64,000 nucleotides of DNA from Bacteroidota bacterium (GTDB taxonomy: Bacteria > Bacteroidota > Bacteroidia > B-17B0 > Aurantibacillaceae). Each line of letters starts with the position of its first letter. The first letter of the stretch is position 1. The stretch covers positions 1 to 64,000 of the forward strand of contig JAJONO010000007.1 in assembly GCA_021323535.1 (NCBI GenBank). Direction: 5' to 3'. A program made the position numbers and the translations under genes. The notes beneath the pieces are model-generated. The model was not told the origin of the DNA. It made no database searches and saw nothing but the letters and a program-made list of their open reading frames with translations. Below, piece after piece: positions 5,906 through 17,008 of this stretch.

Positions 5906-8900
5906 TTATCGAAAAAAATTTGGGGTGGCCAATGTTCCAGTAAATCCAGGTCCAGTATAAGATCTTACAGCCCCCATTATTGCTTTCAAAGAATAATATG
6001 TTCGATTATTAAAGCTATTCGCACTATTAAAAGTTTGGAAAGACGTCATTGTTATATTCCCGGTAGAAAATGGAGTCGCGCTATCATTATATGTCAAAAT
6101 ACCAGTTGCACTAGCGAATGTTAATGTCCGGCCTCCTGAGTTAATATTTATTGGACCTGTAGTTAATTCCTGTTGACCATCTGGCGAAATATCTATTACT
6201 GAATTTCGGTTTAATCCACTTATTGTAATATTATCTACTTTCACTTTAGTACCACCGTTGATTTCTGTTTCAATATTATAAAAGCTAACAAAACCTTCTG
6301 GCGTATTTGTAAAATAATTTCCCCATATAAACGAACCACTATTATTTTCGGCTACATATTTTGACACCATATCAAAATGAGTTAAAAATTGATCACCTCT
6401 CGCTGTACTTAAATCTAGTTGACCTGGTTCCGCAACAATCGCGAGAGCCTCATTTTTTTTAATTTCAGCCATCTCTTTCTGTGTTCCTGCAATTGCATTA
6501 GCAATATCAACTACCATCGCCAACCCATCCACAACCATCCCATTCGGATCTAAAATCGTACTCCCTCCATCATCATTCTTTGCCATAATAGACACTGCAG
6601 CGTGGAAAGCCTTTCGCGAAGACGATTCTCTTATACCCACAGCAAAAGAACCCAATGAATTTCCCATGCTGGCTACATCAGTAGAAAGCATTGATTCTTT
6701 AAAGCTACTGTTACCCGAAAGTCCCTGTACCTGGTCGTTATTTGTTCCCAATGCATTTGAATTCAATATCATTTCAGTCGACGTTAGTTCATCTATTCCA
6801 CTTTGATAAGAAAGATATACATCACTCCCAAAAGCTTTTGTTAAACCCGAATAACTAGCGTTAAGCGTCTGCACAGCCTTAAGATAACCATTTATATCGT
6901 TTCTCCTGTCATAATCGTTACTTAAAAAGTGTTTGGTAATATTTTCATACTCTTCCGTATACCTTTTCTGAATAGCATCATTGGAGTATGCACCATATCC
7001 TCCCTGCCTGGCTCTTTCCATTTCAGCCTTATTTCTAAACTGCTGCCCCTTCAAATCCCGCGAAGCGTTCACCCATCCCCCATCAGGATCAACTCCGCTA
7101 ACCGGGTTATTGGCCATAGCTATATAAGGGCTTTCAAATTGTCCGTAAGGATCCGGTGCAAACCATCTGCCAATATCCTGGTTGTATTGCCTTAACTCAA
7201 ACTGGTACCAGGGGTTGCTGCCGTCTTCTATTTTTTCCTGGCCCTGATAGGCGTTGCGGCAGGCTTCTGCTTCCCAAATACGGCCCGGTAGTTTTCCTCC
7301 CCAGGCATAATAATCGGCTGTGCTTAATATTTCAATCGAGTTGTCACTTTCGGTAGCGGAGCCAGGTTTATAAGTAGCACGTACATTGCCGAGGTGGTCG
7401 GTTACATAAAATACTTTGTAGTAAGGCGATGTAAAGCCATCTTCGGCCAATTCATCTATTCGTATAACGCCTCCTGGTATTTTTACCTCCTTTACATTGG
7501 GCTTTCCGGTTGCACCCTCGTTTAATTCATATACAAAAGGCCCTACAAACCAGTTATATTTAAAATAGTTGCCGCCGCTATTATAATATGTACTTTTTAA
7601 TTTGGCCCCATCGGCGCCGTAGTCATATAAAGTGTAGTCGCCATTCGTAAATATAATTCGTTTAACCTTTCCATCTGCAAAATAACAAACACTGTCAATA
7701 CCCTCGGCAGAACTTACCGTTAACTGTCCAATAGCATTATAACTGAATGAACTCGATGCGCTGGTACTTGGAGTTTTAAAATTAAATCCGGCCGGATAGC
7801 TGTTAGAGGCGGCATCCAGAATGTTACCTACCTGGTTGCCCGTAGAGTTAACCGTATAGGTTAAATTATCAAGCACAACGCTGTTAAAGGCCTGTCTTAC
7901 CATACGAGTAATGTTACCGTTTCGGTCATAGGCAATATTGCCACTACTGGCACCGGTTTCAGCATATTCCGTACGCGAAGAGTATGTACTTGTATTATTA
8001 TTATAAGTATAAAAATTTGTTTTTGCCAGGCGGTTTAAGTCATCATACCAAAACTTAAAGGCGAGTTCCTGTTCACCATAATTAGTACTGCTGGTAATTT
8101 GTGTTTGGGCACCTCCTCCATAGTCAATATAATCCATACCGGTAGGTGTACCGTTTACATTGGCTCTTGTTTTAAACCTTACGGCATGAATAAGACCATT
8201 GTAGATGCTGCTTCCTGAAGCTATGGAACTAGTTGTGGTTGTTCCGCTACGAATATAATCGTTATAATGGTAGTCGAGAACTTCTCCAAAAAGATCGATA
8301 GGTGGCGAACCCGGTTCAGATCCGTCATCCTTTGCGCCATCTGCTCCCGGGTCACTGGTAATATCAAGAGCGGGATGATTGATTGCTTTAAGTAATCCAC
8401 CTATTGTGAACACATAATCGGTACCTTGGTAGTGGTTGCCGGTAACCACCCTGTTAAGGCGGCCAAGTTTATCATACGAATTGGTCAGAATATTAACAGC
8501 AGAGCCGCTTTCACAAGCAAGTGTAGTTACAGTTGGTCTCAGGTTATTATCATAACTATAATCATAAACCATTTTTTCATAGGAAGTGTTTTCCTGGTAA
8601 ATAGAAGAGTTATGTAGCCCGTTAAAAAAATTAATATGTGTTTCCGAGGTTTTAATCTTGTCATCAACACCTCCTGAACTCATTAGGTTTGCATAATCCA
8701 CATCGGTTACATAAGTAATTGTACTTCTCTGACGCCCTAGGCTATCGTAATTAAACCAAATTGTGCTGTTGGCATTTTTAATAAAGTTTACCTGACCGTT
8801 TCTGAACTTCTGGTAATTATTGTAATATGTCCAACTGTTAGGAATATCGTACCCAGAACCTGTTGGTATAAAATACCCTGTAACTGTAGTAAATGATTTA

Positions 8901-10564
8901 CCGGAAGTAGTGAGTCCATCTTGTGAATCCAATATAGTATGCGAATGTATACCAGTGGTACCGCTTCCCGGGCCAAGTAAGTAATAATTGGTAAACCATG
9001 CGTTTCCTGCGCCATTTACGCTATAGTACTCTCCTGTTTCAACCGCGCGGCCATGCACATCATAATTTACATAACTAAACCGGCCCCCCTGCTTCTGAAC
9101 AGCATTTTGTGTAAAACGTAATTTTCCCTGAACATCGTAAGTCATTTCTACTAGTCCTTCATCAGGAGTTTTCTTTGCGATCAACTGTCCGTAATGGCTG
9201 TAATCATAAGTGGTTGCCATTGTAATCGTGGTTGGTGTGGTACAGGCAAAACCCTTAGGACTTACACTTTTACGGAGTGCGCCACCAACATCGTAATAGT
9301 TTTTACTGAACATGCCATAATCTACACTGTATCCAATTTTAAGATCGGCCGGTGTTACGCTCAGGGCAATCAATCCTGCTTCGTATGTAGGGTCGTAAGA
9401 TACACTGATGCGCAGCACATAACTGCGACCTGTATAAAGACTTGAAAAGGGTGTAAGAAATGAAATAGCGCCGGTACTCGTGTTAAGAGAATAATCCGTG
9501 CCGTTTACCAGAACCACATCCCTGTAAAGATCGGTGATGGTGTAAGACAAATCACTGTAGGAAGTAGACGTGGTTGGCGTGGTAGCTTGTGTTGGTTTGT
9601 GAAATACCAGGCTCGATTTATAGGTATCGCATATATGAATATCTGTGCTCAAGGTCCCCTTGTAATATAAAGTATTTAGTACGGCGTAATTACAGGCATC
9701 GGTACTTAAGCCGCTAAGCGAACTTGCCAGCATTTTACCACCAATGCTGTAAGTAATCTGTTCCTTATTATCGGGTGTAATAACTATCTGCTTGCTGGCA
9801 ACAATATCAGAACCTGTTGTAAGAGGCCCGCTGTTATTTTTATCGCTTGAGTCGCGTTTGCTTTTATAATAAAAGTTGCTCCCATAAATATATTTTAATT
9901 CGTCTCCTGAAGGCATAGTAAAACTGTAACTTTCTTTTCCACTCCCCATTTTAAACGCGTTGCCCGGTTTACTTACCCTCCGTTCTGCTCCTCCCGGATC
10001 GCCGGTATACTCAATTCTTGTGTAAGGATTGGTTGCCGTTGCCTGGCGTGTGTCATAAGTATTATTATTGCTGTAATAGTAACCCAATGTATTGGTAATA
10101 TTATTTTCAATGGCATTATTGTTATTTAACGTTCCGGGTGTATCAAAATCGGTGTAACTATAAGGTTGCGCGGTTTGATTACGCATAAAACCTGTTTGGT
10201 AAATAAGCTGGTTACCTGTAAACGCAGGCATAGTTTTTACAGCTCCTCTTCCATAAGCATCATAAACGGTTTGTGTACGAAACACTTCATTACTGGCATT
10301 CTTACCAAGTTTTTGTGTAGTTCTTCCGAGAGCGTCGAGATAAATTTTTTCTACAGCAATTACATTTCCACTTTCATCATAGGTTTCTTCCTGGTTCCAG
10401 TTTCTGAGCATATCCGTGTTAAACGGCACCAATACTGTTACTATTAATTTTGGTTTTGGCCCGCCTGTTTGATTCGGACCTAGAAAAGATACCGCTGGCC
10501 CCGGATTAACCTCGTGTTTCAATTTTATGATCCAGCCATAAGAAGAGTTAACTTCAGTCACCAT
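5906..10564 (-). CDS. Rhs/YD-repeat protein with polymorphic toxin C-terminus (cassette D)
   Basis: A 1552-aa protein. Residues ~50-170 (MLRNWNQEETYDESGNVIA, YLDALGRTTQ) look like the DUF6443-type N-terminal module of Bacteroidota Rhs proteins. Residues ~420-1080 carry YD repeats. The Rhs-associated core runs from VTDHLGNVRATYKPG to IGRWFAPDPYGQFES and DPDGG (about residue 1162). A pre-toxin region (LKGQQF, EEYEN, LSYQSGID) and an unrecognised tail of about 250 residues follow. The Rhs shell normally encapsulates and delivers the tail to a neighbouring cell. No signal peptide is visible at the annotated start, and no coding sequence is seen further upstream. The gene may therefore be truncated at its 5' end or exported by another route. 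The C-terminal region serves as the recombination target for orphan cassettes A-C. Confidence 0.9.
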   Translation of the reverse strand: MVTEVNSSYGWIIKLKHEVNPGPAVSFLGPNQTGGPKPKLIVTVLVPFNTDMLRNWNQEETYDESGNVIAVEKIYLDALGRTTQKLGKNASNEVFRTQTVYDAYGRGAVKTMPAFTGNQLIYQTGFMRNQTAQPYSYTDFDTPGTLNNNNAIENNITNTLGYYYSNNNTYDTRQATATNPYTRIEYTGDPGGAERRVSKPGNAFKMGSGKESYSFTMPSGDELKYIYGSNFYYKSKRDSSDKNNSGPLTTGSDIVASKQIVITPDNKEQITYSIGGKMLASSLSGLSTDACNYAVLNTLYYKGTLSTDIHICDTYKSSLVFHKPTQATTPTTSTSYSDLSYTITDLYRDVVLVNGTDYSLNTSTGAISFLTPFSSLYTGRSYVLRISVSYDPTYEAGLIALSVTPADLKIGYSVDYGMFSKNYYDVGGALRKSVSPKGFACTTPTTITMATTYDYSHYGQLIAKKTPDEGLVEMTYDVQGKLRFTQNAVQKQGGRFSYVNYDVHGRAVETGEYYSVNGAGNAWFTNYYLLGPGSGTTGIHSHTILDSQDGLTTSGKSFTTVTGYFIPTGSGYDIPNSWTYYNNYQKFRNGQVNFIKNANSTIWFNYDSLGRQRSTITYVTDVDYANLMSSGGVDDKIKTSETHINFFNGLHNSSIYQENTSYEKMVYDYSYDNNLRPTVTTLACESGSAVNILTNSYDKLGRLNRVVTGNHYQGTDYVFTIGGLLKAINHPALDITSDPGADGAKDDGSEPGSPPIDLFGEVLDYHYNDYIRSGTTTTSSIASGSSIYNGLIHAVRFKTRANVNGTPTGMDYIDYGGGAQTQITSSTNYGEQELAFKFWYDDLNRLAKTNFYTYNNNTSTYSSRTEYAETGASSGNIAYDRNGNITRMVRQAFNSVVLDNLTYTVNSTGNQVGNILDAASNSYPAGFNFKTPSTSASSSFSYNAIGQLTVSSAEGIDSVCYFADGKVKRIIFTNGDYTLYDYGADGAKLKSTYYNSGGNYFKYNWFVGPFVYELNEGATGKPNVKEVKIPGGVIRIDELAEDGFTSPYYKVFYVTDHLGNVRATYKPGSATESDNSIEILSTADYYAWGGKLPGRIWEAEACRNAYQGQEKIEDGSNPWYQFELRQYNQDIGRWFAPDPYGQFESPYIAMANNPVSGVDPDGGWVNASRDLKGQQFRNKAEMERARQGGYGAYSNDAIQKRYTEEYENITKHFLSNDYDRRNDINGYLKAVQTLNASYSGLTKAFGSDVYLSYQSGIDELTSTEMILNSNALGTNNDQVQGLSGNSSFKESMLSTDVASMGNSLGSFAVGIRESSSRKAFHAAVSIMAKNDDGGSTILDPNGMVVDGLAMVVDIANAIAGTQKEMAEIKKNEALAIVAEPGQLDLSTARGDQFLTHFDMVSKYVAENNSGSFIWGNYFTNTPEGFVSFYNIETEINGGTKVKVDNITISGLNRNSVIDISPDGQQELTTGPININSGGRTLTFASATGILTYNDSATPFSTGNITMTSFQTFNSANSFNNRTYYSLKAIMGAVRSYTGPGFTGTLATPNFFR

Positions 10565-11102: not shown

Positions 11103-11834
11103 TTACTCGTACATCACCTGACAATTCTCACAATAACACGTGAGCCGTTTTCCCTTACCAAGATATTTACGTTTAGTTTTTAATTTGCAACGAGGACATT
11201 CACTCTTTTTATAGATCAGAAAATTTTTCTTGAGCACGTACGCTTTTTTCCAATGATAAAACTCGTGACTGTAATTATGTCCTTCCTTCACCAGTTCCTT
11301 TATTTTTTTGAGTGGAAGAGATTCTACCAGGCATTCGGGATGGACCTTAATTCTGAAGAGAACTTCGTTCTTGATTATATTTCCCACTCCCGAAAAAATT
11401 TCCTGGTTCATGAGCACATCACAAACTTCAGTATCTTTCAGTTTCTTCACTGTTTTTAATGCTTTTGATTCGTTCCAGTCGGGCGACATCACATCGGTTT
11501 CCCAATCGTAATCTGTATCAGGATCGCCTTCAATTAATTTTATACTACAGGAATAGAGATTAAGCTCCCCGTTCGAAAATTTAAATCCCAAACGCACCGG
11601 CTTATCTTTTTTTTCGTTGATGCGATAAGTGCCCCACATGAGCATGTGTATCTTCAGATAAAAATCCTTGAACACGATTAAAAAATGTTTTCCCCAGCTT
11701 TTAAAATCAATAATTTTCTTTCCGTCCAGGCGTTCAATCCCAATCTTTGAATTTCCATAAACCTGCAGAATCTTTTTTCCTTTAAAAGCGGAAACCTCTT
11801 CGCGTAAAATAACTATAGATGGTCCTTCAGGCAT
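11103..11834 (-). CDS. nei: Fpg/Nei-family DNA glycosylase (endonuclease VIII-like)
   Basis: A 243-aa base-excision repair enzyme that removes oxidised bases and cuts the abasic site. The initiator Met is followed by PEGP, giving the catalytic Pro2 and Glu3. SWGKHFL (Lys49) fits the conserved beta-hairpin lysine. The H2TH segment is around residues 143-166 (QEIFSGVGNIIKNEVLF). A C-terminal zinc finger has CPRC (213-216) and CENC (235-238). Length is slightly short for the family. The start overlaps the end of the DUF72 gene by 8 bp, so the two are translationally coupled. Whether the substrate range is Fpg-like or Nei-like cannot be decided by eye. Confidence 0.9.
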   Translation of the reverse strand: MPEGPSIVILREEVSAFKGKKILQVYGNSKIGIERLDGKKIIDFKSWGKHFLIVFKDFYLKIHMLMWGTYRINEKKDKPVRLGFKFSNGELNLYSCSIKLIEGDPDTDYDWETDVMSPDWNESKALKTVKKLKDTEVCDVLMNQEIFSGVGNIIKNEVLFRIKVHPECLVESLPLKKIKELVKEGHNYSHEFYHWKKAYVLKKNFLIYKKSECPRCKLKTKRKYLGKGKRLTCYCENCQVMYE

Positions 11835-12552
11835 GTTGAATAATTTCTTTTAATTGCAAAGCATTGGTGTAACCGGCTTCGTAATAGGTGTTATTAAAAT
11901 AGATGAAATGCTCCTTTGTTTTTTCCGGAAATTCAAAATAGAACTCTTTTAGTTTTTCTTCGCTATACAACGATTTAAATAGTTCGGGGTTTCCATGAAA
12001 CCGAAAATAAAACAAAGGTGTTGTTTGAATAATAGATGAGTTTAGTCCGGGAAAGTCCACATTACAAAATGTGATCTTCGCTTTTTTAAATTCTTTTTTT
12101 ACAGTATCGTTCCACCACGAAATATGACGGAGTTCCACCACATTTTCTTTTTTGTGCGGAACATTTTCAAGAATACGTTCAAGATTTTCATCTGTGAAAT
12201 GGAACGACGGCGGTAGCTGAAAAAGGAAACAGGCTAATTTATTTTCGAGTCCGTTCAGAATCAAATCCTGGAATTCATTGACCATGTCTTTGTTCCCGTT
12301 CAGCTTCTGAATGTGGGTAATATACCTGCTCATTTTAACCGAAAAACGAAAATCTTCGCCGGTTACAGATACATATTTTTTGAGGTCGGAAAGTTTGGGT
12401 GTTCGGTAGAAAGTTCCGTTCAGCTCAACTGTATTAAAAACCGAACTGTAATATTCGAGCCAGTTTTTCGGTTGAATTCCTTTTGGATAAAATCTGTTCT
12501 TCCAGTAGGAATAATAGTATCCCGAGCAACCTATACTGTATGCTTTTTTCAT
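11827..12552 (-). CDS. DUF72 (YecE-like) family protein
   Basis: A 241-aa protein with the hallmarks of the DUF72/YecE TIM-barrel family: the N-terminal IGCSGYYYSYWKNRFYP, then EYYSSVFNTVELNGTFYR, a QLPPSFHF segment, the VELRHISWW motif and the C-terminal YFNNTYYEAGYTNALQL. The biochemical role of the family is not established; the fold is an eight-stranded barrel. It ends 8 bp inside the glycosylase gene and lies about 100 bp downstream of the DUF763 gene on the same strand. This context hints at nucleic-acid metabolism. Confidence 0.88.
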   Translation of the reverse strand: MKKAYSIGCSGYYYSYWKNRFYPKGIQPKNWLEYYSSVFNTVELNGTFYRTPKLSDLKKYVSVTGEDFRFSVKMSRYITHIQKLNGNKDMVNEFQDLILNGLENKLACFLFQLPPSFHFTDENLERILENVPHKKENVVELRHISWWNDTVKKEFKKAKITFCNVDFPGLNSSIIQTTPLFYFRFHGNPELFKSLYSEEKLKEFYFEFPEKTKEHFIYFNNTYYEAGYTNALQLKEIIQHA

Positions 12553-12604
12553 TTACAGGAGAAGAGCAAAGATTTATGCCAGAAAACTCAATACCATACA
12601 AACC

Positions 12605-12632
12605 GTCATCCTGAGGCACGAAGGATCTGCAC
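12605..12632. repeat. Dispersed repeat of the GTCATCCTGAGG...GAAGGATCT type
   Basis: The 28-bp sequence GTCATCCTGAGGCACGAAGG followed by ATCTGCAC matches the wording of a repeat seen in many Bacteroidota intergenic regions (from memory). It lies between the DUF763 and DUF72 genes. Confidence 0.45.
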
Positions 12633-12649
12633 TTGATTATTATCGAAGG

Positions 12650-13870
12650 TCAAAAAAGGCTCAGCTGCCCCACATTCTTCGGCGGTTTCGTTTTCCCGAA
12701 AACAGTTCGTCCGCCATATTTATAAGAATCTCTTCTCTCCTGCTCTATCACTTTATAAAAATTGGCATTGGGCATAAAATTCTTTTCAATGGCCTGAGCA
12801 GCCAGCGTAAGATTTTTGATGGCTTCGTTTTTATCAGTAATTCCTAGTTTTGCTTTTTCAAGTGCGTTACGAAGTACATCTATGGTTTGATCATAGGTTT
12901 TGGTTGGAACCGGAAACGGGTGTCCGTCCTTTCCTCCATGAGCAAATGAAAAACGCGCCGGATCGGTAAATCGTGAAGGCGTTCCGTGAATGATCTCACT
13001 CACCAGTGTAAGCGATTGAATAGCACGCGGACCAACACCTTCCAGTAATAATAACGATTCAAAATCGCTCACCTGTCTTTCATGAGCCAGTGCGAGAACA
13101 CTTCCCAGCCTCTTCAGATCAACATCTTTTTCCTTTACATCGTGATGTGAAGGCATTACAATTTTTCTGATCTCAGGAAGAATAACTGAGGGCGATTCCT
13201 TTACCAGTTCAAGAAGGCCGGTCTTTGTGTGCACAGCATTTTTATCAGTGAGATTAAGAATCTCTCCCTGGTTGGCACCATAAATGAACGAATGTGGTTC
13301 TTCCACAAAAGAAGTCAGTTGCTTTGAGTGCCAGTGGTAACGTCTCGCCATACCGCTTTCATCATTCATTCCCTGCTGTATCACCGCCCACTCGCCTTCA
13401 TTACTCACCATGAACGTATGAAGATAGATCTGGAAACCATCCTGAATCGCGTTATTATCCACTTTAGCGCTGAGCCGACTATTTTTTACCAGCTCTGTTC
13501 CGTTCAGGCCCGTACGTTCTGCAAGAGATAATAATTCCGAAGGAGTTTGCCTTGAGTGATTTCCTTTTCCTCCGCAAATGTAAATTCCTATTTCGCTGAA
13601 TTTGGGATTCAATGCTTTTTTCAGGGCACCCATCACAGATGTGGTAATCCCGGAAGAATGCCAGTCCATACCCAAAACACAGCCAAGCGCCTGGAACCAC
13701 ATGGGATCGCTCATTCTTGAAAGCACTTCGCTTTTTCCATACTCCATCGCTACCGATTCAATAATGGCCCCTCCGAGTTTGCTCATGCGTTCTGCCAGCC
13801 ATGGCGGCACTTTTCCATAATGAAGGGGAAGATCGGCGTAACGCTGGTTATCGAAATAAAGTTTAGGCAT
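12650..13870 (-). CDS. DUF763 family protein with C-terminal beta-clamp-binding motif
   Basis: A 406-aa protein recognised as DUF763 from its N-terminal ADLPLHYGKVPPWLAERM, the ICGGKGNHSRQTP motif, and the GFQIYLHTFMV...EWAVIQQGM and RRYHWHS segments. Around residues 270-298 LLLLEGVGPRAIQSLTLVSE resembles a helix-hairpin-helix DNA-binding element. The last five residues, QLSLF, match the bacterial sliding-clamp-binding consensus QL(S/D)LF; I checked this on the nucleotide sequence. The family is of unknown function. These features and the neighbouring glycosylase suggest a DNA-repair or replication-associated role, which is an inference. The upstream sequence carries TAACTTTG close to the ATG, of uncertain meaning. 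Confidence 0.85.
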   Translation of the reverse strand: MPKLYFDNQRYADLPLHYGKVPPWLAERMSKLGGAIIESVAMEYGKSEVLSRMSDPMWFQALGCVLGMDWHSSGITTSVMGALKKALNPKFSEIGIYICGGKGNHSRQTPSELLSLAERTGLNGTELVKNSRLSAKVDNNAIQDGFQIYLHTFMVSNEGEWAVIQQGMNDESGMARRYHWHSKQLTSFVEEPHSFIYGANQGEILNLTDKNAVHTKTGLLELVKESPSVILPEIRKIVMPSHHDVKEKDVDLKRLGSVLALAHERQVSDFESLLLLEGVGPRAIQSLTLVSEIIHGTPSRFTDPARFSFAHGGKDGHPFPVPTKTYDQTIDVLRNALEKAKLGITDKNEAIKNLTLAAQAIEKNFMPNANFYKVIEQERRDSYKYGGRTVFGKTKPPKNVGQLSLF

Positions 13871-13966: not shown

Positions 13967-14488
13967 CTATTTCCAATAGTTCTGCACTCCAAACTTCGCT
14001 CCAAATACCGGATCTGTTTTTGGGAGTGATACATTCATGATATTATTGTCTGCCGAAGGACGCTCGCCTTCTTTTCCATATTTAATGTCATAATCATGTC
14101 CTGTTGGATAGGCCCCGATACAGCACACATCATTTTCATTGCCTTCATTTTTATGAGCCACTCCCGCAGGAATAACAATCACATCTCCGGCTTCGATCTC
14201 AATACTAACCCCGTTTTCTCCTCCCAGTAGCAACGTTGTTTTTCCTTCACAAACACCAAGCACTTCGTGCGTGATACTGTGATAGTGATGATATTCGTAG
14301 ATACCGCTTTTCCAGGAGTTGCCCCATTTATTACTGATGAACAGCCTGCGGACATAAAAACACTTGAAGAAGCGCGGTAAGGCCAGTACTTTTTTGTAAA
14401 CGATCACTGGTAAAACGCTGTTCGGAAATTTTCCGGTATCATTCAATCTGAATTCCTGAATTTGTATTTCACTTTGCTGGTGTTTCAT
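13967..14488 (-). CDS. Cupin-domain protein (YjlB-like)
   Basis: A 173-aa single-domain cupin. The metal-binding motif 1 appears as YHHYHSITHEVLGVCEG, and motif 2 as IEAGDVIVIPAGVAHKNEG. The N-terminal wording (FRLNDTGKFPNSVLPVIVYK) resembles Bacillus YjlB-type cupins. The substrate is unknown. It is the last gene of a four-gene unit and its start lies inside the end of the DUF421 gene (20-bp overlap). Confidence 0.85.
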   Translation of the reverse strand: MKHQQSEIQIQEFRLNDTGKFPNSVLPVIVYKKVLALPRFFKCFYVRRLFISNKWGNSWKSGIYEYHHYHSITHEVLGVCEGKTTLLLGGENGVSIEIEAGDVIVIPAGVAHKNEGNENDVCCIGAYPTGHDYDIKYGKEGERPSADNNIMNVSLPKTDPVFGAKFGVQNYWK

Positions 14489-14978
14489 ATTCTTCTTTTT
14501 TAATAATACTTATATGTCCGTCGCGCTCTATATAAATTGTTTTTATTTTTTCGAACGAATCTAAACCACTGTTCGACCTTATCCCTTCTATGAGATCGTT
14601 TTCGGAAATCCTGCAGTAAGACATGTTTTCGCGTACCAGTTTTCCGTTCTCATAAATAACTTTTGCTTCTCCTTTGATAAGTTTCCCGAAAAATCTGCTT
14701 TTCATTCCCCACCAACCAAAAAAACGATGCAGGAACGCTATAATTCCTGACGCGGCTACAACGGGCCAGAATGGCGATGCGCCTGTAACAGCCCGGCTGA
14801 GAATGGCCCCTAGAAGAATTGCCATCACATTATCAAACGGCATACGCATTCCAAAAGCCCTTCGGCCTGATAATCTCAGAAGAATAAGTCCGATACAAAA
14901 AATAACAACCGCCCTGCTCGACATCTGTAGTACCGAGAGTTGTTCGCCTTCACCAAAAATATATTTTACTGTATTCAT
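14469..14978 (-). CDS. DUF421 (YetF-like) membrane protein
   Basis: A 169-aa protein with two to three N-terminal membrane segments (about residues 20-40, 50-65 and 70-85), including the family words LLRLSGRRAFGMRMPFDNV. A C-terminal soluble DUF421 domain has KGEAKVIYENGKLVRENM and NDLIEGIRSNSGLDSFEKI. YetF-like proteins are linked to sporulation or stress in other phyla; the function here is unknown. It overlaps the pyrophosphatase stop as ATGA and the cupin gene downstream. Confidence 0.85.
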   Translation of the reverse strand: MNTVKYIFGEGEQLSVLQMSSRAVVIFCIGLILLRLSGRRAFGMRMPFDNVMAILLGAILSRAVTGASPFWPVVAASGIIAFLHRFFGWWGMKSRFFGKLIKGEAKVIYENGKLVRENMSYCRISENDLIEGIRSNSGLDSFEKIKTIYIERDGHISIIKKEEYETPAK

Positions 14979-15487
14979 AGTCTTTGCTTTCTAATGAGGC
15001 TATATGCCGCGTTTCTCCCCGAAATGCCAGTAACATTTATTTCCTTTTCAGACATGGAATTATAAAATTTCAGAAAATTGGAAATACCCTTGAGTAGATT
15101 TTTATTAATATCTTTTATCTCCTTCAGATTATCAAGCTCCTGCATAACATCCGGTACCAATACAAACCGATCGTTCCTGATCTCCTTTTTATGTTTTTCT
15201 TTCTGAATAATTTTTATGACGCCCAACAACCTGCACTCTATGAGACAACCCGGAAAAGTGAATTCGTTCATCAGAACAAGCGCGTCGAGAGGATCTCCAT
15301 CTTCGCCTTTTGTGTTGGGAATAAAACCAAAATCGCAGGGAAAGATCATTCCAGCCGGAAGAACTTTTTTTAGCCTGAACAGTCCAGTCATTTTTTCGTA
15401 GTTATATTTACTTCTGCTACCCTGGGGCGATTCAATAATGACATTTATTATGTTTTCATTTTCCGAAAAAGTTGCCGGCAAATTCAT
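14975..15487 (-). CDS. ppa: Inorganic pyrophosphatase (family I)
   Basis: A 170-aa soluble pyrophosphatase that hydrolyses PPi to phosphate. Family signatures are IESPQGSRSKYNYEK near the N-terminus, PCDFGFIPNT, and the metal-binding GEDGDPLDALVLM (the DGDPLD core). The residues IIQKEKHKKEIRNDRFVLVP complete the barrel. Both ends overlap neighbours by 4 bp (ATGA), indicating a translationally coupled operon. This looks like an operon-borne accessory copy rather than a stand-alone housekeeping gene, which is an inference. Confidence 0.9.
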   Translation of the reverse strand: MNLPATFSENENIINVIIESPQGSRSKYNYEKMTGLFRLKKVLPAGMIFPCDFGFIPNTKGEDGDPLDALVLMNEFTFPGCLIECRLLGVIKIIQKEKHKKEIRNDRFVLVPDVMQELDNLKEIKDINKNLLKGISNFLKFYNSMSEKEINVTGISGRNAAYSLIRKQRL

Positions 15488-15966
15488 AGTTTTAATCTTT
15501 TAAGGATCATGTCATATAAGTAGAAACAGGCTTTCTCCCTTATCTGAAGAGGTGAACCTTTAAAGACCTTCCTTTCTTTATAAAAAGTAGTTCCCTTCTT
15601 CAAACAAAAAAACACGGTGCCAACAGGTTTGTCCCTTGTTTCGGATCCACCAGAGGAGGCAAGTCCGGTAATAGCTGCATGAATGTCGGCGTCAATCAAC
15701 CCGGAAAGATTTTTTACAAGGCGCCCCGTGACTTCCATAGATTCACACGAGTATTTTTTTATCATCGGAGCGGGGATCTTTAACAGAGTTTTTTTTACAT
15801 CTTCATTATAACACACAATCGATCCTTTTAAGACATCGGATGTTCCTTTTACAGTTGATAGTTTATGGGCGGCAAGTCCGCATGTCATACTTTCAGCAAG
15901 AGCAAGTGTCAGTTTTTTTTTCAGAAGTGTTTTAATAAAATGGTTTATCCTCGAGTTAGCGTTCAT
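15484..15966 (-). CDS. CinA C-terminal domain protein (nicotinamide-nucleotide amidase-like)
   Basis: A stand-alone CinA-C domain, about 160 aa from the ATG at 15966. The frame can be extended to a TTG at 15987, but the ATG is preferred. Motifs are LALAESMTCGLAAHKLS, SDVLKGSIVCYNEDVKKTLL, and GLASSGGSETRDKPVGTVFF. The family deamidates nicotinamide mononucleotide in pyridine-nucleotide salvage. It leads the four-gene unit with pyrophosphatase, DUF421 and cupin, and ends with an ATGA overlap. A poor sigma-54-like match (AGGTAC, 5 nt, TTGAA) lies at 15977-15992, so near the start that a transcript would be almost leaderless. I give it little weight. Confidence 0.85.
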   Translation of the reverse strand: MNANSRINHFIKTLLKKKLTLALAESMTCGLAAHKLSTVKGTSDVLKGSIVCYNEDVKKTLLKIPAPMIKKYSCESMEVTGRLVKNLSGLIDADIHAAITGLASSGGSETRDKPVGTVFFCLKKGTTFYKERKVFKGSPLQIREKACFYLYDMILKRLKL

Positions 15967-16201
15967 ATGGGATGTGTGATTCAACAATGGTACCTTGTGT
16001 TTCCCTGAGGAGCTTTTGTAGCACTGATTATTTTTTTTCTCATAGGTGGGATTAGTTTCCGGTTTCGGTTTTATAACTTTTATTTCCCTGTCACTTAATT
16101 CCCACCACTTTAAACTCCAGACTTCTCCCTTTTAACTATTGAAACATCCTGTTAGGCATATATTTTTTGTTCGTAGGATTAAACTTTAAAATTTTCAGAA
16201 T

Positions 16202-17008
16202 ATGATAACAAGAACAAGAAGCAGAGGTTCGAACATGAACGAACGTAATTATGGTGGTGGCAACTATAACCGCCAGGACAACAACTCGGGATACGATCAG
16301 GATTACGATCAGGATTACGACAAGGAATATGATCATGATTTTGAAGACGAGTACGATGACTTTGAAGATGAAGATGACCGCGATTCGGAATATTCGATGC
16401 GTGGGGATTATGATTACGGATATGATAATAACTATAACGAGGACGATAGCTACGATTACAATCAATACGAAAATGAGAACAATGATAATTACCGCGTTGG
16501 AGGAATGCGCTCCGGCAGTAACCGTTCAAACAGTTCGGGAAGAAATGAAGGATACAATGGTTCGGGCAATGGCATGAGAAGAAGAAGCACCTCGTCTAGC
16601 TGGGGAGGTAACAGTTCTCACGGTTCACGTTACGGATCATATGGTTCTGACAACGATTATTCTTCACGCGGCGGAAATTACAGTAATAATGAAAACCGTT
16701 CCGGAAATGGAAGCGATTACTACTCACGTGGCAATGGTAATTCGCGCAATAACAATAACCAGAGGAGCCGTGGCGGAAGTAATTATAATTCCGGAAATGG
16801 TAATGGCGGAAACTATAACAGGAATAACCAGCGCAGTTCATCGCTCCGGGGAGGAAACTCCAATAATAATTCAGGTTACAACAGAGGCAATGGAAACTCG
16901 GGTGGGAACTCAAACCGCAGCGGAAACAATAGTGGTTCACGTTCCGGAAATAACAACGATTCGCGTTACGGAAACAATTCGCGTAACAATTCCAGAAGAA
17001 GATATTAA
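16202..17008 (+). CDS. Asn/Gly/Ser/Arg-rich intrinsically disordered protein
   Basis: A 268-aa protein of extreme composition. Residues ~20-95 are rich in Asp, Glu and Tyr (YDQDYDQDYDKEYDHDFEDE). From ~100 to the end it is almost entirely Asn, Gly, Ser, Arg and Tyr (GNGNSGGNSNRSGNNSGS). There are no Cys residues, almost no large hydrophobics, and no signal peptide or membrane segment. This makes an acidic-Tyr block followed by a basic RGG/SYN-like prion-like tail. The gene is followed by a strong terminator. Another start is the ATG 11 codons in. No family is recognised. Composition suggests phase separation, nucleic-acid binding or desiccation protection, all inferred. Confidence 0.7.
   Translation: MITRTRSRGSNMNERNYGGGNYNRQDNNSGYDQDYDQDYDKEYDHDFEDEYDDFEDEDDRDSEYSMRGDYDYGYDNNYNEDDSYDYNQYENENNDNYRVGGMRSGSNRSNSSGRNEGYNGSGNGMRRRSTSSSWGGNSSHGSRYGSYGSDNDYSSRGGNYSNNENRSGNGSDYYSRGNGNSRNNNNQRSRGGSNYNSGNGNGGNYNRNNQRSSSLRGGNSNNNSGYNRGNGNSGGNSNRSGNNSGSRSGNNNDSRYGNNSRNNSRRRY

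Follow-up and report, generated by a model that had tools for sequence, protein, structure and literature searches.

DUF763, a short DUF72 protein and a NEIL3-like glycosylase as candidate accessory repair proteins co-inherited with Ku/LigD in Bacteroidota

Introduction

Non-homologous end joining (NHEJ) in bacteria is usually described as Ku plus LigD, and its core needs only these two proteins. Here we describe a gene set coding for a DUF763 protein, a short-type DUF72 protein and a NEIL3-like glycosylase of the Fpg/Nei family (hereafter Nei), arranged in tandem on the minus strand of a 64,000-nucleotide stretch of DNA from a Bacteroidota bacterium of the family Aurantibacillaceae (assembly GCA_021323535.1, contig JAJONO010000007.1, positions 1 to 64,000; hereafter the window). 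We propose, with a probability of roughly 0.55, that the three are accessory repair proteins co-inherited with, and probably serving, Ku/LigD in Bacteroidota. DUF763 is found in archaea, rhizobia and Bacteroidota and has no assigned function. If the proposal is true, bacterial NHEJ gains partners beyond Ku and LigD, and DUF72 gets a concrete context beside a glycosylase.

Several described systems resemble parts of this set. Compared with Ku/LigD NHEJ itself, the DUF763 set is co-inherited with it and sometimes adjacent to it, but its genes are accessory, and Ku-LigD of the window's genome is encoded elsewhere. The damage-induced lhr-nei2 operon of Mycobacterium smegmatis also contains a Nei-type enzyme (PMC11323726), whereas its partner is the helicase Lhr instead of DUF72 and DUF763. 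Within the DUF72 family, a structural and simulation study predicts that Tm1631 is a repair enzyme similar to endonuclease IV (PMC3828134); the DUF72 protein of the window belongs to the same family but is paired with Nei. DUF72 was also reported as enriched near PolB2 in archaea and bacteria, beside damage-response genes, and likened to UV-damage endonuclease (PMC11791011), a repair-type context comparable to ours except for the partner, which is here Nei. The pentapeptide QLxLF, with which the DUF763 protein of the window ends, is the consensus motif for binding the beta clamp and typically C-terminal, and binding to the beta clamps of three species was shown for a transposase with QLSLF (PMC4549789); DUF763 shares with these transposases the motif and its position, while its core matches no solved structure in our searches. 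Finally, one described LigD acts as a 5'-deoxyribose phosphate (dRP) lyase and has a phenotype in spore resistance that is also that of an apurinic/apyrimidinic (AP) endonuclease (PMC4770248), and bacterial Ku processes AP sites (PMC4245934), thus providing a published bridge between NHEJ and base excision repair (BER).

Co-occurrence of the gene set with Ku

The genes coding for DUF763 (406 aa, positions 12650–13870), DUF72 (241 aa, 11827–12552) and Nei (243 aa, 11103–11834) were placed on the minus strand by open reading frame (ORF) coordinates and Pfam. A previous sequence-only reading of this DNA had reported an 8-bp overlap of the glycosylase and DUF72 genes, with DUF763 upstream on the shared strand, and the ORF coordinates confirm it: the overlap is exactly 8 bp (11827–11834), and DUF763 ends 97 bp before DUF72 begins. 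The module is nonetheless larger than that reading saw, the link with Ku/LigD end joining having been missed there.

DUF763 is sporadic, being present above cut-off in 28/395 genomes of a phylum sample and in 10/87 genomes of the window's own family; the family carriers are ten and not twelve because two loci, L011 (genome G085) and L012 (G081), are below-cut-off matches to a 535-aa protein and were dropped. In the phylum sample Ku was found in 24 of the 28 DUF763 genomes and in 27 of the other 367 (Fisher 2e-20, odds ratio ≈76), or in 23/27 carriers with the window's own genome left out. Fisher values ignore shared ancestry, so that the count by genus is the safer one, and by genus Ku accompanies DUF763 in 9/12 cases against 18/159 (3e-6). 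Within the own family the figures are 8/10 carriers versus 7/77 (4e-6), the same counts (8/10 and 7/77) being found when Ku was tested with DUF72. Nei was detected in 22 genomes of the phylum out of 335 searched, 21 of them with Ku and 19 with DUF763; no Fisher value is given for these counts because the search of 335 genomes does not list all negatives.

The co-occurrence of the three genes, which the earlier reading had named as a check, is borne out among the 87 genomes of the family. Nei is present in 9/10 DUF763 carriers and 4/77 non-carriers, DUF72 accompanies Nei in 9/13 genomes versus 1/74, and DUF763 in 6/10 versus 4/77. Nei lies downstream of DUF763 on the shared strand in seven of the ten family loci. 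The DNA-repair module first postulated is supported in part, as a set of repair genes with a QLxLF tail conserved in Bacteroidota; DUF72 lies between DUF763 and Nei in only 4/10 loci.

Genomic neighbourhoods and alternative readings

Physical linkage points in the same direction. According to blast clusters, LigD and Ku lie next to the set, on the opposite strand, in three of the ten family loci (L178, L180 and L183); the Ku search places Ku there as well, and in L178 both are confirmed by Pfam. The order in L178 is CinA, pyrophosphatase, DUF421, cupin, DUF763 and Nei, an array like that of the window except for one extra small ORF, then LigD and Ku. Ku was further found 5–7 kb from DUF763 in L062, L064, L068 and L069 (blastp) and in genome G224, and L048 has a LigD polymerase domain at its edge. 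A Bosea plasmid (L209, 3244–9846) carries DUF763, a 3-methyladenine glycosylase, two consecutive Ku genes and LigD in 6.6 kb, so that DUF763 and NHEJ genes come together a second time, in another phylum.

A number of observations weigh against this link. Ku-LigD of the window's genome sits on a different contig (C3), and the window holds no Ku/LigD cluster; on C3 the two genes are preceded by those for an AraC-type regulator and for a small protein rich in cysteine, which resemble, by eye, genes near DUF763 in L180, L183 and L185. Ku or LigD occurs within about 8 kb in only 5/80 named loci, and at ten of the 11 loci read from outside Bacteroidota neither Ku nor LigD is seen within the sequence covered, which reached up to 6–10 kb per side. 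Ku is missing from 4/28 DUF763 genomes (G163, G361, G421 and G433), and from the carriers G009 and G018 of the own family. When size, Ku and Nei are the predictors of a logistic regression over the 87 family genomes, most of the signal falls to Nei and Ku adds little; the Nei gene of genome G012 has one internal TGA. Mn catalase, a non-repair control, is also enriched with DUF763 (4/28 vs 8/367, p 0.007), and NHEJ is known to be more frequent in larger genomes (PMC7719229). Moreover, DUF763 occurs in many archaea (PMC554113), and Sulfolobus acidocaldarius, one of 14 controls among which Ku was matched only in Bacillus subtilis, has DUF763 and no Ku match; the original job of DUF763 is therefore unlikely to depend on Ku.

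The alternative that best accommodates these points is that DUF763 is a clamp-docked factor of general repair, acting in base excision or replication-coupled repair and not specific to NHEJ, with Ku sharing a large repair repertoire. The diversity of its neighbours speaks for it. Across the 80 named loci, 72 ORFs near DUF763 run in its direction, and 9 of these (a raw share) are of repair type: three Nei and two DUF72, plus one each of endonuclease V, DnaE-type polymerase, AlkD-like protein and PolB-type exonuclease. The assignments draw on a closer look at ten of the 72, chosen by eye, and on 25 listed out of 104 families. RecA precedes DUF763 in L179, and on a Rhodopseudomonas plasmid alkB overlaps DUF763. 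The Ku-less carriers, the archaeal control and the better prediction of DUF763 by Nei than by Ku in the family fit are in line with it as well. Against it stand the far higher frequency of Ku with DUF763 and the direct Ku/LigD adjacency in two phyla, and on balance we regard a purely general role as rather unlikely.

A link made only by lifestyle and genome size, large genomes with repair islands gathering all these genes in the absence of any functional tie, seems more clearly improbable. The published size dependence of NHEJ and the weak enrichment of Mn catalase agree with it, but the odds ratio is ≈7.5 for the catalase and ≈76 for Ku, and the signal remains among family genomes of at least 4 Mb (Ku in 6/8 with DUF763 vs 4/24, p 0.005) and in the own genus (4/6 vs 2/34). 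With this control, which covers the own family and the own genus, genome-size confounding of the Ku association is lessened and may in part remain.

Other neighbours of DUF763 were observed at single or few loci. In L077 (4853–9206) DUF763 is preceded, at a distance of 155 bp, by the gene for a DnaE-type polymerase (about 1000 aa), perhaps a copy of the translesion type. On a plasmid of Rhizobium sp. WYJ-E13 (L211, 5007–11146) DUF763 comes right after genes for an ASCH-domain protein and an AAA ATPase, with an N-6 DNA methylase cluster next to it on the opposite strand. In L067, L072, L073 and L100 a similar ORF lies directly upstream of DUF763 on the same strand; these four are probably the four DUF4268 (PF14088) matches among the families listed.

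The Nei–DUF72 pair

Pfam assigns the Nei protein of the window to the Fpg/Nei family (PF06831/PF01149), with E-values of 2e-8 for Fapy_DNA_glyco and 5e-12 for H2TH. It keeps P2, E3 and K49 together with C213, C216, C235 and C238, a probable zinc finger (the roles of the residues being taken from the family), so that the N-terminal Pro-Glu, the H2TH domain and the C4 zinc finger typical of members are all found. Its scores lie below the NCBIfam equivalog cut-offs of both Fpg and Nei. The best PDB match is NEIL3 (8b9n, E 7.8e-24), and the same search returned as a relative 8th9, presumably Nei2 of M. smegmatis. Likeness to the eukaryotic enzyme has its limits: NEIL3 has Val at position 2, whereas the window protein has Pro there and consists of the glycosylase part only, with one probable zinc finger.

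The DUF72 protein matches PF01904 with 193 bits against a cut-off of 25.3 (E 9.5e-57), and falls in the TIM-barrel family of Tm1631 (PDB 1vpq, E 7.6e-28). In the own family 16/87 genomes match it at E 1e-20; the ten matching at 4e-59 or below were counted as window-type and the six weaker ones set aside. Window-type DUF72 is thus present in 10/87 genomes, and it lies directly beside Nei in nine of the ten, once in reversed order. The pair also occurs in G107 and G111, from another family, away from DUF763. Given this adjacency and the pair in a second family, Nei–DUF72 is a true conserved gene pair.

A separate, long DUF72 type (about 300 residues) shows clamp-like ends such as QLGLF, QLRLF and QMELL in several genomes. 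Such ends were seen in 7/50 frames at DUF72 matches, all seven of the long type (L149, L151, L152, L153, L156, L165 and L158, the last from contig C13 of the window's own genome), and are absent from the short DUF72 of the window; each frame was the longest through the middle of the stretch, and a few may be other ORFs.

DUF763 family and predicted fold

The DUF763 protein of the window matches PF05559 with 458 bits against a cut-off of 35.5 (E 2e-137) over residues 11–321. Its AlphaFold model has a pLDDT of 80, DUF763 models having been built from Bacteroidota-only alignments. Residues 273–287 (13010–13054, minus strand) form a helix-hairpin-helix (HhH)-like stretch, LLLLEGVGPRAIQSL, in which model helices 270–274 and 281–295 flank a GVGPR turn; the Pfam support is weak, HHH (PF00633) matching 11/50 DUF763 homologues with a best E of 0.0025, the window protein not being among them. 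With this stretch and the C-terminus described below, DUF763 is taken as the probable HhH, clamp-docked member of the gene set. Across 11 bacterial and archaeal DUF763 sequences, 90 alignment columns are invariant, a conservation strong enough to suggest that the protein is an enzyme.

Sequence searches of the PDB with DUF763, both with the single sequence and as a profile, gave no match up to E 10. With the full model the best Foldseek E was 0.095 and the best VIA Z 4.8 (rmsd 3.7, 65 aligned), and with the core (residues 12–210) the best fold E was 0.15 and the best Z 3.9 (rmsd 4.9, 117 aligned); matches of a predicted model as weak as these do not point to a relative, nor do they show that the fold is new. 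NCBIfam profiles returned nothing for DUF763, the protein was not found in phage and viral collections, and the PADLOC anti-phage profiles gave 0 families for all three proteins at E up to 1. A reading of the core as PD-(D/E)XK or HhH-GPD was weighed by eye and dropped as unsupported. In the open-access literature DUF763/PF05559 was met only in a 2005 domain survey and COG1415 nowhere, most subscription papers lying outside the scope of this search.

The C-terminal tail of DUF763

The last five residues of the window protein are QLSLF (12653–12667, minus strand), as the earlier reading had noted, and the match to the beta-clamp consensus is there in the sequence. Residues 398–406 have pLDDT below 50 in the AlphaFold model and are presumably unstructured. 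The pattern Q[LIMV]x[LFI][FW] was found within the last 20 residues of 106/109 distinct Bacteroidota DUF763 C-termini, the three failing tails being the close variants QGSLF, QLNIRF and QLRMF (L120); tails were counted as distinct strings because L046 and L185/L009 are apparently one contig. At 81 loci (the 80 named genome contigs and the window) a loose C-terminal clamp pattern is carried by 78/81 DUF763 copies, as opposed to 5/1122 other ORFs of the same loci. The exceptions here are QGSLF (L077), QLNIRF (L086) and QLNLW followed by ten more residues (L097). Two of the five background ORFs are of repair type, a DUF72-like protein (L080) and an endonuclease V (L122), and another, L059_8, is judged from its sequence to duplicate part of the DUF763 3' end.

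Both the third residue of the motif, which is free (K, S, E, R, N, D, Q, P or M), and the linker between the conserved GGRTV block and the tail, which measures 9–31 residues, indicate that the pentapeptide is held amid drifting surroundings. That the QLxLF end is an inherited tail with some other role, for instance a folding or degradation element, could draw on its confinement to one phylum among the copies read but appears very improbable, as Q, L, L and F/W are nearly fixed and the middle residue and linker vary, just as the clamp consensus predicts. DnaN is also present in the window's genome, whose DinB (IMS_C match) has an internal QFDLF.

The conservation of QLxLF in DUF763 homologues thus holds within Bacteroidota (106/109) and fails outside the phylum (0/11). 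The best 80 of 593 DUF763 relatives kept by the scan all carry Bacteroidota names, in agreement with the placement of the window's genome in that phylum. The tail is absent from all 11 copies read outside Bacteroidota, all plasmid-borne and drawn from 230 plasmid records with a match (nine from Alphaproteobacteria, one from Legionella and one from a haloarchaeon). Being present in Bacteroidota and absent in these copies, the tail looks like an addition made in one phylum, a lineage add-on and not a defining feature of the DUF763 family. From this motif, DUF763 may work near replicating or gap-filled DNA in Bacteroidota.

Two further tails were recorded at the same loci. The partial DUF763 3' copy in L059 (9539–9919), which follows the full gene, retains a QLKLF tail, and the endonuclease V near DUF763 in L122 (10903–11619) ends in QMGLFDF, a possible clamp tail.

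Proposed mechanism

Considering all of the above, the gene set most likely serves NHEJ/BER as an accessory kit that processes lesions and DNA ends. Judging from its family, Nei would remove oxidised bases and open the abasic site, leaving blocked ends. DUF72, as a putative endonuclease IV- or UV-damage endonuclease-like barrel, a role for which the published support is computational, might then nick or clean abasic or bulky lesions. DUF763 would bind DNA through its HhH stretch, and its QLxLF end, observed as a motif, could hold it on the beta clamp at sites of replication or gap filling, where its conserved core might, speculatively, act on or mark the damaged end. LigD, in which Pfam recognizes 3'-phosphoesterase, polymerase and ligase domains, would finish the join, possibly using the products of Nei, DUF72 and DUF763.

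The Ku-linked profile and the clamp-type tail make DUF763 a testable end-joining or lesion-repair factor. A bolder version, in which DUF763 is the first of a class of DNA-end-processing enzymes with an unsolved fold, its tail in Bacteroidota ties end joining to the clamp, and dirty double-strand breaks are there repaired by a single clamp-linked pathway made up of Nei, DUF72, DUF763, Ku and LigD, is put forward as a tentative and, at present, doubtful extension.

Other features of the window

Upstream of DUF763 four more genes follow on the minus strand, assigned by Pfam and locus comparison. The nearest codes for a cupin-like protein (13967–14488) and recurs as upstream neighbour in 5/10 family loci. 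Beyond it lie genes for a DUF421/YetF-like membrane protein (14469–14978), an inorganic pyrophosphatase (14975–15487) and a CinA-type protein (15484–15987), all matched by the array of L178, which there continues to Nei, LigD and Ku. The search for promoters and terminators gave no case for either, the counts of such signals being about those of shuffled sequence. A repeat-like string in the gap between DUF763 and DUF72 (12605–12624) is a single copy in the window, its other matches coming from three loci only, all at one place.

Downstream of the module and on its strand, positions 5906–10564 hold an ORF of 1552 aa that resembles RHS/YD-repeat proteins (named by eye). A further ORF of 268 aa (16202–17008) has an extreme content of Asn, Gly, Asp, Tyr, Ser and Arg.

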